The notes under the pieces: generated by a model
Database searches by the model: none
What the model saw: the letters and a program-made list of their open reading frames with translations, nothing else
Told to the model about the DNA's origin: nothing
Origin: an uncultured Thiogranum sp.
GTDB taxonomy: Bacteria > Pseudomonadota > Gammaproteobacteria > DSM-19610
DNA length: 35,241 nucleotides
Direction: 5' to 3'
Assembly (NCBI GenBank): GCA_913053655.1
Contig: CAJXFW010000010.1
Span: forward strand, 1 to 35,241
Translations under genes and position numbers: made by a program
Shown: positions 7,841 through 33,145 of the stretch, piece after piece
Position numbering within the stretch: the stretch's first letter is position 1
Layout of the letters: each line of letters opens with the position of its first letter

Positions 7841-9022
7841 ATGCCCGACACAAAAGATACATTGCCCGGTTTTGAAACGCTGGCGGTTCGTGCCGGGCAG
7901 CAGCGCACGGCCGAGTGCGAGCACGCAGAACCGATTTTTCCGACCTCCAGTTATGTCTTCGAGAGTGCGGCAGATGCAGCCGCACGTTTTTCCGGAGAGC
8001 GGCCGGGGAACATCTATTCACGTTTTACCAATCCCACCGTGCGAACTTTCGAACAGCGCCTGGCGGCTCTGGAAGGCGGTGAGCGTTGTGTGGCGACCGC
8101 CTCCGGCATGTCGGCCATCTACGCGACCTGCGCGGGCCTGTTGCAGTCCGGTGATCATGTGGTGTCCTCGCGCAGTATTTTTGGCAGCACGACCTTGCTG
8201 TTCACTAATTTTCTGCACAAGTTCGGTATTGAGACAACCTTTGTCGCCCAGGATGACCTGTCGGGTTGGGAAGGCGCCATACGGCCGGAGACCCGACTGC
8301 TGTTTCTGGAAACGCCCTCGAATCCATTGACTGAAGTGGCCGATATTGCCGCACTGGCTGACCTGGCCCACACCCACAAGTGCTTGCTGGTGGTGGATAA
8401 TTGTTTTTGTACCCCGGCACTGCAACGCCCGCTGTCGCTTGGCGCCGATATCGTCATCCATTCGGCGACCAAGTATCTGGATGGACAGGGCCGCTGTATG
8501 GGTGGCGCAGTGGTTGGACGCGAAGATGTTGTTGGCGAAGGCGTGTACGGTTTCCTGCGCACCTGCGGGCCAACCATGAGCCCGTTCAATGCCTGGGTGT
8601 TCCTGAAGGGCCTGGAGACGCTGTCGATCCGCATGCAGGCACATTGTGTGTCGGCACAGCTGTTGGCGGACTGGCTCCAGGATCAGCCTGCCGTTAGCCG
8701 AGTGTATTATCCCGGACTGGCATCCCACCCCCAGCATGAACTGGCGACCCGGCAGCAGTCCGGTTTCGGCGGTATTGTCGCATTTGATCTGAAGGGTGGT
8801 CAGGAAGCTGCCTGGAAATTGATAGACGCAACCCGCATCTGTTCCATAACGGCAAATCTGGGTGACACAAAAACGACCATAACGCACCCGGCGACAACCA
8901 CGCACGGTCGTCTCACACCGCAGCAACGTGAGGAAGCAGGAATATCCGATGGACTGGTTCGGGTGGCGGTCGGTCTGGAATCCGTCGATGATCTGCGCGC
9001 GGATCTGGCGCGCGGACTTTAG
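7841..9022 (+). CDS. metZ: O-succinylhomoserine sulfhydrylase
   Basis: This PLP enzyme of the Cys/Met metabolism family makes homocysteine directly from O-succinylhomoserine and sulfide. The 393-residue protein has the PLP lysine Lys211 in HSATKYLDGQGR, and the tail sequence ISDGLVRVAVGLES typical of the family. Starting at ATG 7841 is supported by GGAGAGG at 7831-7837; the frame is open to ATG 7766, but that extension crosses the terminator hairpin. Assignment to metZ rather than metB or metC rests on the purF-metZ gene order known from Pseudomonas and on overall resemblance; substrate choice cannot be proved from sequence alone. Confidence 0.9.
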   Translation: MPDTKDTLPGFETLAVRAGQQRTAECEHAEPIFPTSSYVFESAADAAARFSGERPGNIYSRFTNPTVRTFEQRLAALEGGERCVATASGMSAIYATCAGLLQSGDHVVSSRSIFGSTTLLFTNFLHKFGIETTFVAQDDLSGWEGAIRPETRLLFLETPSNPLTEVADIAALADLAHTHKCLLVVDNCFCTPALQRPLSLGADIVIHSATKYLDGQGRCMGGAVVGREDVVGEGVYGFLRTCGPTMSPFNAWVFLKGLETLSIRMQAHCVSAQLLADWLQDQPAVSRVYYPGLASHPQHELATRQQSGFGGIVAFDLKGGQEAAWKLIDATRICSITANLGDTKTTITHPATTTHGRLTPQQREEAGISDGLVRVAVGLESVDDLRADLARGL

Positions 9023-9040
9023 GGGGACCCGCTGCGTTTA

Positions 9041-9382
9041 TTACGTGGCCAGCAGGCTGATTTTACCGACCCCCCAGCGCTGGAAATCCTCGAAACCCAC
9101 ATCGGTTTTATCTGCGATGTCGGAGTTGGAGGGGACACGGGAAATATTCACAGTACAGGTACTGGTTAGTGCCCGGTCGATCTTGTCCTCGGTGTAGTGG
9201 GGCAGGACCAGTAGCAATTCAATCATTTCGTGGTTAAATTCTACCGGTGTATCGAGGCGCAGCAGATAATAGTTGTCACGCATAGGTCCCTTCAGCACCG
9301 CAACGCCTGCAACCGTCAGCGGGTTCTGGCCTTTGTACTCATAGGGTTCGTAGACTTCAAGGACATGTTGTTGTTCGCCCAT
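9041..9382 (-). CDS. Hypothetical protein, family not recognised
   Basis: An open minus-strand frame ending 18 bases from the metZ stop. From ATG 9382 it gives 113 residues, with AGGAAA and GAGG just upstream. The frame stays open past a TTG at 9442 to a stop near 9470, so the true start could be 20 or more residues earlier. The protein is acidic, has no signal peptide or membrane helix, and seems rich in beta strands; a central NYYLLRLDTPVEF and LLVLPHYTEDKIDRAL give it a plausible folded core. I know no motif that assigns a function. It is convergent with metZ and divergent from the next gene. Confidence 0.55.
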   Translation of the reverse strand: MGEQQHVLEVYEPYEYKGQNPLTVAGVAVLKGPMRDNYYLLRLDTPVEFNHEMIELLLVLPHYTEDKIDRALTSTCTVNISRVPSNSDIADKTDVGFEDFQRWGVGKISLLAT

Positions 9383-9532
9383 TTTCCTGAATACCTCGAC
9401 TGCGGTGGATCGAGCATGCACCCAACCCGATGCCGGTGTCAAAACCAGGATCTCTTCCTGGGTAACAGGCTATATTAAATAGAGTCCATAACTTAATGTA
9501 ATATATTCAGATAAAATTGTGATTTGGGATTT

Positions 9533-9570: not shown

Positions 9571-9957
9571 ATGCCTGAAAGTGTAGCGATACTGGTCGGC
9601 GACAATCTGTTCGCGTGTGCCTGGCAATGCCTTGAATGTGCCGACCCCGAGGTAAAGTGCGAACTTACGGAGCGCCTGGAACAGGCGGGTGACGGGTCTA
9701 CAGTTGCTGTACTGGAAATTATCCTGCGCGACGAGATCGGGCACGTGGAAACAGGAACACGCTGGTTTCGTTTTCTGTGTAATGAGCGGGACCTTGACCC
9801 CGATGTTACTTTTGCCGGGCTGGTACAGGAATATATGCGCGGTCAGGTGAAACGGCCTTTTCACTATGCGGCCAGGGAAAAGGCAGGTTTCAGCAAAGTT
9901 GAAATGGGTTATCTGGAAGCATTCGCGGCAGGAAACAGGGTGACTCATGAAAAGTAG
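9571..9957 (+). CDS. Internally deleted DUF455 (ferritin-like) protein, probably non-functional
   Basis: The 128-residue product resembles the two ends of the roughly 270-residue DUF455 family joined together. Residues 13-35 (FACAWQCLECADPEVKCELTERL region) look like the first helix. From about residue 37, EQAGDGSTVAVLEIILRDEIGHV onward, it follows the C-terminal part, including RWFRFLCNERDLDP and REKAGFSKVEM. The middle third, which in the family holds the first Glu/His metal ligands, is absent; only the second-half Glu-x2-His (EIGH) remains. The frame is intact, so the loss was in frame. Its end overlaps the next gene by 11 bases. It may be a decaying gene or a reduced protein. Confidence 0.7.
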   Translation: MPESVAILVGDNLFACAWQCLECADPEVKCELTERLEQAGDGSTVAVLEIILRDEIGHVETGTRWFRFLCNERDLDPDVTFAGLVQEYMRGQVKRPFHYAAREKAGFSKVEMGYLEAFAAGNRVTHEK

Positions 9958-10690
9958 CGCAAGTCCGGTTCGGAGGGTGTTCGTGAACCGGCGGTTCAGT
10001 ATCTTTAGTTTGCTGTTGCTCACCACCGGAGCGGTCCATGCCGAGGTGACGGGCAGCGTACTCTGGTACCTGGAACAGGAGCCGGGTATTGAGCCTTACA
10101 AAGTGCGTTACCTCGTTACCGAGAATTTTATGCGCTCCGACGAGGGCGACGGTGAAGTTGGCTTTGCCCTGTTTAATCGAAGCACCCGGCAAATCTACAG
10201 CGTAGACCCGGAAGTCCGGACTGTGTTAAGCATCGACGGGCAAGGGAAAACGCCCAAGACGCCACGACGTCTGGATATCAGTATAAAGCAGCATGTCGAT
10301 TCAGAGTTTCCCCGTATTGCCGGCAAGGTGCCGGTCACCGTCGAGCTTAACGCAGGGGGTGAGCTGTGCGATTCAGCGGTTGTGATACCCGGTTTCCCGG
10401 GTCCGGCACGCGCAGCGTTCCAGGAATTTGCCCGGTCACTGGCGATTCAGCAGAAGCGTACTCTGGCTAATACGCCCAGCGAATACCAGACACCCTGTTT
10501 TCTGTCCCGCTATATCTATGCCGGGGATTTTTACCTGCAGCAGGGTGTGCCGTTACTGGAGTGGGATGGTAAGGGTAAGCGACGCGAATTGATTAATTTT
10601 CAGATCGGGGTCGGGCTGGATGAACATTTGTTTGAACTGCCGGAGGGGTTTGAAACTATCCGGGCAGGTGGTCAGCAGGGCGCACCCTGA
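9947..10690 (+). CDS. Exported protein of unknown function
   Basis: A 247-residue protein with a clear Sec signal peptide: basic N-terminus (RRVFVNRR), hydrophobic core (SIFSLLLLTTGA) and a likely cut after AVHA at residue 32. The mature part is mostly beta-like, with two cysteines (GGELCDSA and YQTPCFLSR) that could pair in the periplasm. No catalytic motif is evident and I do not recognise the family. The start overlaps the preceding DUF455 remnant by 11 bases, so the two were probably co-transcribed. Its last 19 bases overlap the end of lpxH on the other strand. Confidence 0.8.
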   Translation: MKSSASPVRRVFVNRRFSIFSLLLLTTGAVHAEVTGSVLWYLEQEPGIEPYKVRYLVTENFMRSDEGDGEVGFALFNRSTRQIYSVDPEVRTVLSIDGQGKTPKTPRRLDISIKQHVDSEFPRIAGKVPVTVELNAGGELCDSAVVIPGFPGPARAAFQEFARSLAIQQKRTLANTPSEYQTPCFLSRYIYAGDFYLQQGVPLLEWDGKGKRRELINFQIGVGLDEHLFELPEGFETIRAGGQQGAP

Positions 10691-14673: not shown

Positions 14674-14689
14674 TTTGCGCTCCGGATCG

Positions 14690-14718
14690 TTGACGCAATC
14701 AAGGTGTAAACGTATTAT
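14690..14718 (+). promoter_or_regulatory. Sigma-70 promoter of the tRNA cluster
   Basis: TTGACG (14690-14695), a 17-base spacer and TATTAT (14713-14718) each match five of six consensus bases. The bases just after the -10 box (CGCCGGCCCGGCCC) form a GC-rich discriminator, typical of stable-RNA promoters under growth-rate and ppGpp control. The start would lie near 14725, about 58 bases before tRNA-Pro. Confidence 0.7.
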
Positions 14719-14782
14719 CGCCGGCCCGGCCCACCCTGGAATCAGGGTCGGTGTGAGTTCGGTCCCGGTACGGAGGAAATTT

Positions 14783-14859
14783 CGGGGTATAGCGCAGTCT
14801 GGTAGCGCGCCTGCTTTGGGAGCAGGATGTCGGGAGTTCGAATCTCTCTACCCCGACCA
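14783..14859 (+). tRNA. tRNA-Pro (anticodon TGG)
   Basis: A 77-base cloverleaf with encoded CCA. The acceptor stem CGGGGTA pairs with TACCCCG. The anticodon loop between CCTGC and GCAGG reads TTTGGGA with TGG at its centre. GTTCGAATC forms the T loop. It closely resembles the E. coli proline tRNA of the same anticodon and is the first gene of the cluster. Confidence 0.95.
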
Positions 14860-14908
14860 CATTATTGGTGTCAACAGGGTAGTAACGGGCTGTATTTCAA
14901 CATATTCG

Positions 14909-14985
<77 letters not shown>

Positions 14986-31099: not shown

Positions 31100-33145
31100 A
31101 TGAGTGAAACGCTGTTACAGGTGAAAGAACTAAGCGTCCGGATCGGCACCGGGGATAGCGCCATTCGCCCCGTGGATGCCGTCAGTTTTGAGATCAGACG
31201 CGGCGAGACATTCGCTTTACTGGGCGAGTCAGGTTGCGGTAAATCCATGACCGCGCTGGCGCTGTTGCGCCTGTTGCCGCAACCTGCCGGCGAAATTGTC
31301 GGTGGCTCCGTGCGACTGAGCGGTGAGGAACTGTTGTCACTGCCCGAAAACGGCATGCGTGCGGTGCGTGGCGGCCGAATCGCCATGATATTCCAGGAGC
31401 CGATGACATCGCTGAACCCGGTGATGACTATCGGCGACCAGATCTCGGAAAGCCTTGAGCAACACAAGGGTCTGCGCGGCGCGCAGGCGCGGCGACGGGT
31501 AGTGGAACTGCTGGACGATGTCGGTATCCCCGACGCCGCACACCGTTACGGCGAATACCCGCACCAGTTATCCGGCGGCATGAAGCAGCGCGTCATGATC
31601 GCTATAGCACTGGCTGGTGACCCTGACCTGTTGATCGCCGACGAACCGACCACTGCGCTGGACGTTACTATCCAGGCACAGGTGCTGGAGCTGATCAGGA
31701 ACCTGCAAAAAAAGCACGGTATGGCGGTGCTGCTGATCACACACGATCTTGGTGTAGTCTCGGAGATGGCCGATCGCATCGCTGTCATGTATGCCGGTCA
31801 GCTGGTTGAACAGGCCCCGCGCAAACTCTTTTTCGGGCAGGCACAACACCCCTACAGCCATAAACTGTTTGCCGCGCTTCCAGATGCCAGTAAACGCGAG
31901 GAACGGCTGACCGTTATTCCCGGCACCGTGCCACTGCTTAACCAGACATTTTATGGCTGCCGTTTTGCCGATCGTTGTGAACGTGCCTGGGATATCTGCC
32001 GAGGTCAGGTGCCGGACTGGTTCGAAACTTCACCGGAGAAAGGTGAGGCGCCTGGGGTGCAGGGCGTGCGTTGTCACCTGGCTGACCCGACACTTTCGGC
32101 GCCGACAGACCGGACGGTGGTGGATGATACAGCAGCACAACCCGCCCGAACCGCACCGGCGCCACAAAACGTGTTGCTTGAGGTCGATGGACTGAAGGTT
32201 CATTTCCCCATTCATAAAGGTTTGTTCAAGCGTGTCGTCGGTCAGGTACGTGCGGTGGACGGTGTCAGTATGTCGATCGCCGGGGGCCAAACCCTGGCGC
32301 TGGTGGGCGAATCCGGTTGCGGCAAAACTACGGTCGGCAAGGGTATCCTGCAACTGCTGAAAACTACCGCCGGCAGCGTGCGTTTTAAGTCTGTCGAACT
32401 GACCCGACTGACAAGCAAGGCACTGCGCAGCCGGCGCTCGGATTTCCAGATCATCTTCCAGGATCCGTATTCCTCCATGAATCCACGCATGAGCGTCGTG
32501 GACATTATTGAGGAGGGGATGATCGCCCAGCGCATCGGTAGCAACGCACAACAACGCCGGCATCGCGCGCAGGATTTGTTGCGACAGGTCGGATTGCGGC
32601 CCGAACACATACACCATTACCCGCACGAGTTCTCCGGCGGCCAGCGCCAGCGTATCTGTATCGCACGGGCGCTGGCTGTCAATCCACAACTTATTATCTG
32701 CGACGAACCTACCAGCGCACTGGATGTTTCGGTGCAGGCACAGATTCTCAATCTATTACAGGATTTGCAGCGTGAACTGGGACTCTCGTTCCTGTTTATT
32801 ACCCATGACCTGTCTGTCGTATCCTATATAGCCGACCGGGTAGCCGTCATGTATCTCGGTCGCATTGTGGAGGAGGGGGACGTCAATGAGGTGTTGGAAG
32901 ATCCAAAACATCCCTATACCCAGGCCCTGCTTTCAGCAGTTCCGCGCATTGATGGTGAGAGTGAGCGCAAGGTCATTCGTCTGGAAGGTGATTTGCCATC
33001 ACCGTCAAATCCACCGCAAGGTTGCCACTTCCATCCACGCTGCCGACAGGCCAGGCCTGAATGCAGAAAAAGTTATCCAAAGGTGACGCGCCTGTCGGAA
33101 ACCCGTCTGGTCCGGTGTCACCTGATGGACAGTCAGGTAAAATAG
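31100..33145 (+). CDS. ABC transporter ATP-binding protein with two fused ATPase domains (OppDF / YejF type)
   Basis: The energy subunit of the importer. The 681 residues contain two complete ABC modules: Walker A GESGCGKS at 42-49 and GESGCGKT at 403-410, signatures LSGGMKQR and FSGGQRQR, and Walker B LLIADEPTTALD and LIICDEPTSALD. Each half ends in the oligopeptide-transporter C-terminal region with a four-cysteine pattern (CRFADRCERAWDIC plus VRCH; CHFHPRCRQARPEC plus VRCH), which in DppD-type proteins binds a 4Fe-4S cluster. Three bases separate it from the permease gene. A single fused protein would give the heterodimeric arrangement in one chain. Confidence 0.95.
   Translation: MSETLLQVKELSVRIGTGDSAIRPVDAVSFEIRRGETFALLGESGCGKSMTALALLRLLPQPAGEIVGGSVRLSGEELLSLPENGMRAVRGGRIAMIFQEPMTSLNPVMTIGDQISESLEQHKGLRGAQARRRVVELLDDVGIPDAAHRYGEYPHQLSGGMKQRVMIAIALAGDPDLLIADEPTTALDVTIQAQVLELIRNLQKKHGMAVLLITHDLGVVSEMADRIAVMYAGQLVEQAPRKLFFGQAQHPYSHKLFAALPDASKREERLTVIPGTVPLLNQTFYGCRFADRCERAWDICRGQVPDWFETSPEKGEAPGVQGVRCHLADPTLSAPTDRTVVDDTAAQPARTAPAPQNVLLEVDGLKVHFPIHKGLFKRVVGQVRAVDGVSMSIAGGQTLALVGESGCGKTTVGKGILQLLKTTAGSVRFKSVELTRLTSKALRSRRSDFQIIFQDPYSSMNPRMSVVDIIEEGMIAQRIGSNAQQRRHRAQDLLRQVGLRPEHIHHYPHEFSGGQRQRICIARALAVNPQLIICDEPTSALDVSVQAQILNLLQDLQRELGLSFLFITHDLSVVSYIADRVAVMYLGRIVEEGDVNEVLEDPKHPYTQALLSAVPRIDGESERKVIRLEGDLPSPSNPPQGCHFHPRCRQARPECRKSYPKVTRLSETRLVRCHLMDSQVK

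Follow-up and report, generated by a model that had tools for sequence, protein, structure and literature searches.

The DUF455 gene in the stretch of DNA analysed here (the window, 35,241 nt from an uncultured Thiogranum sp.) lacks its middle, and we consider it probable that the gene is in early, lineage-specific decay caused by one deletion, its reading frame having been kept either by chance or for coupling to the gene behind it. The features of the locus are collected in Table 1. Residues 20-111 of the open reading frame (ORF) match positions 154-245 of the 247-position Pfam profile DUF455 (PF04305; E 3.1e-28), and with 99.5 bits against a curated cut-off of 34.3 the ORF belongs to the family by score. 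The HMM covers only this last part of the full-length domain (profile 1-247), and the N-terminal piece of the remnant is recognisable through comparison with congeners only. An NCBIfam search of the ORF returned no match, and no second DUF455 match was found in the organism's own genome, an assembly that is 85% complete and divided into 268 contigs.

Table 1. Features of the DUF455 locus, with positions in the window.
Feature	Position	Strand	Basis
DUF455 remnant ORF, 128 aa, with in-frame internal deletion	9571..9957	+	ORF reading, Pfam, congener comparison
N-terminal segment kept, residues 1-34, equivalent to helix 1 plus roughly half of helix 2 in the full-length model	9571..9672	+	Congener alignment, model
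Deletion junction; 465 nt absent relative to G016, G012 and G002	9668..9673	+	Ungapped comparison
C-terminal segment kept, residues 35-128; core helix D and C-terminal helices	9673..9957	+	Pfam, congener alignment, model
DEIGHV, the single ExxH left of the family's two (E55, H58)	9730..9747	+	Invariant alignment columns
18-nt spacer, in place of about 860 nt in G016 that include a SIMPL-domain (PF04402) gene	9023..9040	.	Congener comparison
133-aa ORF between the two losses, without a Pfam match; conserved in G016, G012, G007 and G002	9041..9442	-	
Downstream ORF, 247 aa, with an 11-nt overlap between its start and the DUF455 stop	9947..10690	+	ORF reading

The extent of the loss can be read against other members of the genus (G numbers denote genomes, L numbers the loci read), among which G016 matches the window best. 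In the 283-residue DUF455 protein of G016, residues 1-34 of the remnant align with the N-terminus and residues 35-128 with the C-terminus. A search gave 61% identity for query residues 4-39 (3.2e-9) and 66% identity for query residues 19-127 (1.5e-42), and both matching pieces fall, co-linear, in one frame of 305 codons. These two co-linear homologous pieces bear out the preliminary description of the window, which had proposed a DUF455 gene with an in-frame internal deletion and had regarded a failure of the N-terminal residues to align with DUF455 as evidence against it; residues 1-34 do align with congener N-termini. That the N-terminus is instead unrelated upstream sequence is ruled out by the 61% match. 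In an ungapped comparison in which the left part of the remnant was anchored at the N-terminus and the right part at the C-terminus, and on which the breakpoint rests, the junction fell at 9668-9673 against G016, at 9671 against G012 and, less sharply and discontinuously, at 9668-9686 against G002. The absent stretch corresponds to 155 residues against each of the three, rather than the roughly 130 first estimated. Length differences measured from anchor to anchor were 465 nt in L010 (G014), 465 nt in L012 (G003) and 474 nt in L017 (G010). The earlier picture of a first helix joined to the C-terminal third was right as to the joining of N- and C-terminal pieces, while the kept N-terminal part also includes about half of helix 2. 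The remnant resembles DUF455 in its C-terminal profile match, in its match to congener N-termini and in the gene neighbourhood of G016, G012 and G002; it differs in being without the central 155 residues.

A full-length relative gives an idea of what those residues would contribute. The predicted model of L057 (275 aa; eight-sequence alignment) has a pLDDT of 90.7 and a pTM of 0.90, with core helices at residues 79-106, 112-138, 163-175/177-192 and 195-225. It resembles aldehyde-deformylating oxygenase (5k53_B; VIA Z 14.3, rmsd 3.3, 180 residues) and MiaE (6zma_C; Z 12.6), bearing in mind that a Z of about 14 for a helical bundle is near the tool's warning level and can be reached through a common helix arrangement. 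Foldseek matched the model to ferritin-like diiron proteins with a probability of 1.0 but a best E of only 0.1, and the Pfam MiaE match of the full-length relative is sub-threshold (E 0.029). No convincing solved structure of the DUF455 family was found by sequence. On this modelling, full-length DUF455 is predicted to be a ferritin-like four-helix protein of the diiron type. Glu93, Glu125-x-x-His128, Glu175 and Glu208-x-x-His211 (L057 numbering) are invariant in eight full-length relatives. A Glu / ExxH / Glu / ExxH pattern in helices A/B/C/D presumably marks diiron metal ligands, as in ferritin-like proteins, and the six invariant Glu and His residues, which fit this pattern, are candidate metal ligands.

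Little of this arrangement is left in the remnant. It is without the equivalent of L057 residues 33-187, comprising roughly half of helix 2 together with core helices A and B and the greater part of C; Glu93, Glu125, His128 and Glu175, four of the six candidate ligands, are lost with this stretch. Only the last ExxH, in helix D, is kept, which leaves the set of Glu (A), ExxH (B), Glu (C) and ExxH (D) incomplete. The model of the remnant has a pLDDT of 68.2 and a pTM of 0.59, and its best Foldseek probability among the 50 matches listed was 0.11. Structure prediction, which had been suggested as a check on the deletion, thus gave no confident fold for the remnant and a confident one for its full-length relative. 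Whereas the relative's model is like the ferritin-like diiron proteins (aldehyde-deformylating oxygenase, MiaE and bacterioferritin) and carries their Glu / ExxH / Glu / ExxH pattern, the remnant is left with a single ExxH helix. The preliminary description had placed the loss in the first half of the metal site; the site is indeed hit, but the loss is larger, and only the last of the four metal-site helices is whole. Because helices A, B and most of C are removed together with four ligand candidates, the product of the remnant is not expected to form the metal site and probably does not function.

The joined N- and C-terminal form without the middle was found in none of the 16 other genomes of the genus (17 genomes were searched including the window's own, one per species), all of which keep at least part of the deleted middle. 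DUF455 is whole or nearly so in 12 of these 16 (257-284 aa as read; in G011 it begins at a contig end). In the other four, G004, G006, G007 and G013, it is interrupted by contig ends or Ns, with profile spans of 2-103, 2-79, 2-178 and 2-189, respectively, each of which includes part of the region missing from the window. Across the class, 194 of 369 genomes had a DUF455 match. When genomes are ranked by their best E, the window (1.6e-27) is isolated between G127 (5.4e-66) and values of about 1e-6, and by this best match no joined short form was found elsewhere among the 194. Seventeen class genomes with weak, partial or multiple matches, including those with two matches, were re-inspected; had a full-length copy masked a short one, the short copy would have been listed as an additional match. 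Most of the weak matches were under the family cut-off and were either middle-profile spans in longer frames or short fragments. Two pieces that score above the cut-off occur in G320, on separate contigs (profile 3-81 and 60-246), and G307 has one piece where a contig ends; neither these two nor any other of the 17 holds an N+C junction without the middle. A conserved family of similar 128-residue proteins across species, named beforehand as an observation that would speak against a deletion, was accordingly found neither in the 16 other genus genomes nor, by best match, in the class sample. A scan of named genomes gave eight DUF455 loci, each with a frame of 264-308 aa, and a tblastn search of plasmids gave 13 records, all below 60% identity.

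In G127, a one-contig genome of 1.4 Mb, DUF455 carries two in-frame stops (G127:C1:685695-686423), apparently an independent decay of the family. Because of this copy, and because 144 of the 313 class genomes that are at least 90% complete have no DUF455 match, DUF455 is, judged by its distribution, dispensable in the class. In the portions of the literature consulted for DUF455 (including PMC4520260), COG2833 (PMC12090721) and PF04305, no assigned function for the family was found.

A second loss lies about 0.6 kb upstream of the DUF455 deletion. The window runs co-linear with G016, as it does with those parts of G012 and G002 that were read. The 18-nt spacer is bounded by the stop of a gene ending at 9022, which we take to be metZ-like, and by the minus-strand ORF 9041-9442. 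In G016, G012, G007 and G002 the order is metZ-like gene, SIMPL-domain gene (PF04402; 4.1e-27 for the G007 copy) and small minus-strand ORF. In 15 of the 16 congeners, the contig with DUF455 also has a match to the SIMPL protein no more than about 3 kb away, the exception being G011, whose contig begins inside DUF455. The SIMPL-domain gene is absent from the window's locus, and no match to it was found elsewhere in the organism's own 85% complete assembly. An additional ORF of 412-413 aa, presumably a glycerate 2-kinase gene from its appearance, lies between the small minus-strand ORF and DUF455 in L068 (G012) and L073 (G002). Neither the window nor the parts of G016 and G007 that were read contain it, so the locus gains and loses genes.

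Two losses about 0.6 kb apart in a window of 35 kb could also mean a local problem. The deletion would then stem from misassembly, or from a minority variant taken into the draft consensus, in an organism that has a full-length DUF455. We consider this unlikely. The window comes from a single draft genome, with the completeness and contig number given above, and four of the 16 congener assemblies (G006, G007, G011 and G013) break inside DUF455, where 0.95 would be expected (Poisson P = 0.016, a post hoc value with the expectation taken from rounded contig numbers). The breaks lie in L027 (G006), L025/L030 (G007), L008 (G011) and L024 (G013), and a run of Ns lies within DUF455 in L026 (G004). 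The window itself, however, contains no N, and the longest direct repeat within the intact gene is 10-11 nt in four congeners, too short for the usual k-mer collapse; simple collapse is therefore unlikely. Among the 31 window ORFs matched to G016, DUF455 alone is missing more than 10 internal residues within the aligned part; none of the other 30 shows such a loss. ORF 14675-14947, matched in G016 over just 26 of its 90 residues, is unlikely to be a gene, and ORF 31100-33145 has a second, overlapping G016 match that stems from an internal repeat. The similar identity of both DUF455 pieces to G016 also argues against an error, as does the SIMPL loss, which ends between two intact genes in the way a real deletion under selection would.

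Compared with intact orthologues, the gene carries an internal loss of 155 residues, a lesion of the kind expected in a pseudogene if, as its extent suggests, it is disabling. The relaxed constraint that would also be expected of a pseudogene was not seen in the remnant, and a very recent lesion would look alike. Over the 106 retained codons compared, the window has 4 amino-acid changes of its own and G016 has 5 when G012 serves as the outgroup, and each has 6 when G002 does. With G012 as the outgroup, the codon changes were 3 non-synonymous and 13 synonymous in the window and 3 and 9 in G016. In the 84 C-terminal codons, dN from the window was lower than dN from G016 to eight of 11 other congeners (G012: 0.226 versus 0.244) and higher to three, slightly so for G001 and G011 and more for G010 (0.268 versus 0.213). 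The aligned C-terminal part retains each of its 21 family-invariant residues. Neither the unique changes nor dN against the 11 congeners shows a clear acceleration in the retained parts. The deletion may therefore be recent, or the remnant constrained, or the deletion not real; decay fits only if the deletion is recent. Dating it by dS is ruled out because dS in these NG86 estimates is near saturation or undefined for several pairs.

The same observations bear on whether the remnant has been selected as a mini-protein whose role is new or reduced; it might, for instance, form an oligomer in which several copies of helix D rebuild a metal site, or act as a partner of the downstream product. Its open frame, the kept overlap with the downstream gene, the 21 retained invariant residues and the absence of clear acceleration would all suit such a role. 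Against it, the form is seen neither in the 16 other members of the genus nor, by best match, in the class sample, the predicted fold is of low confidence with no good fold match, four of six candidate ligands are gone, and the absent acceleration is equally well explained by a recent event. We regard a selected mini-protein as very unlikely. Of the two outcomes that the preliminary description had left side by side, early decay or a selected mini-protein, decay is favoured, although the evidence, from one genome of the species, does not settle the choice.

The downstream gene offers a second reason for which a frame might be kept. The intact frame and the overlap with this neighbour, both pointed out earlier, are real, with an ORF start at 9947; no Pfam or NCBIfam match was found for the downstream ORF. 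In all 13 genus members read, the next ORF starts between -29 and +7 nt from the DUF455 stop, overlapping it in 11, in a comparison that used the longest ORF with start codons chosen mechanically. A counterpart of ORF 9947-10690 stands behind DUF455 in these 13, and an ORF that looks similar by eye follows DUF455 in a distant gammaproteobacterium (L058 5323-6072). DUF455 and the overlapping downstream ORF are possibly a conserved pair. In-frame internally deleted pseudogenes occur in operons with overlapping genes. The remnant is like these in that its kept frame would preserve termination-reinitiation at the downstream start, if the overlap reflects coupling. Read from the sequence, out-of-frame outcomes would meet stops at 9848 or 9690, at least 99 nt before the downstream start. 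Huber et al. (PMC10666635) report that coupling depends strongly on distance and is already nearly abolished at about 20 nt. An in-frame deletion is thus the kind that would leave the downstream gene translated. Since a deletion has an in-frame length by chance in one case in three, translational coupling to ORF 9947-10690 as the reason for the kept frame is a suggestion only.

In the decay reading, which we prefer, a single 465-nt deletion, evident from the congener comparison, removed the middle of the DUF455 gene in this lineage. Core helices A and B and the greater part of C went, along with their four ligand candidates, and helix D stayed with its ExxH. The frame would have survived by that chance, or because an out-of-frame loss would break coupling to the downstream start. 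Loss of the nearby SIMPL-domain gene would have accompanied this early decay, in a locus that may be eroding. It is doubtful that selection maintains the remnant, whether as a working mini-protein or, for the sake of the frame alone, as a leader whose translation brings ribosomes to the downstream gene. Most likely, the deletion is an instance of ordinary gene decay, an event of a familiar kind, and does not mark a novel protein type.

For annotation, the remnant calls for caution: well over the DUF455 cut-off, it would be called a member of the family, yet it is without most of the presumed metal site. That one lineage has neither an intact DUF455 nor the nearby SIMPL-domain gene hints weakly at a link between the two. 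If the frame was kept for coupling, the locus would offer a natural test, on a small scale, of the influence of operon structure on gene decay.
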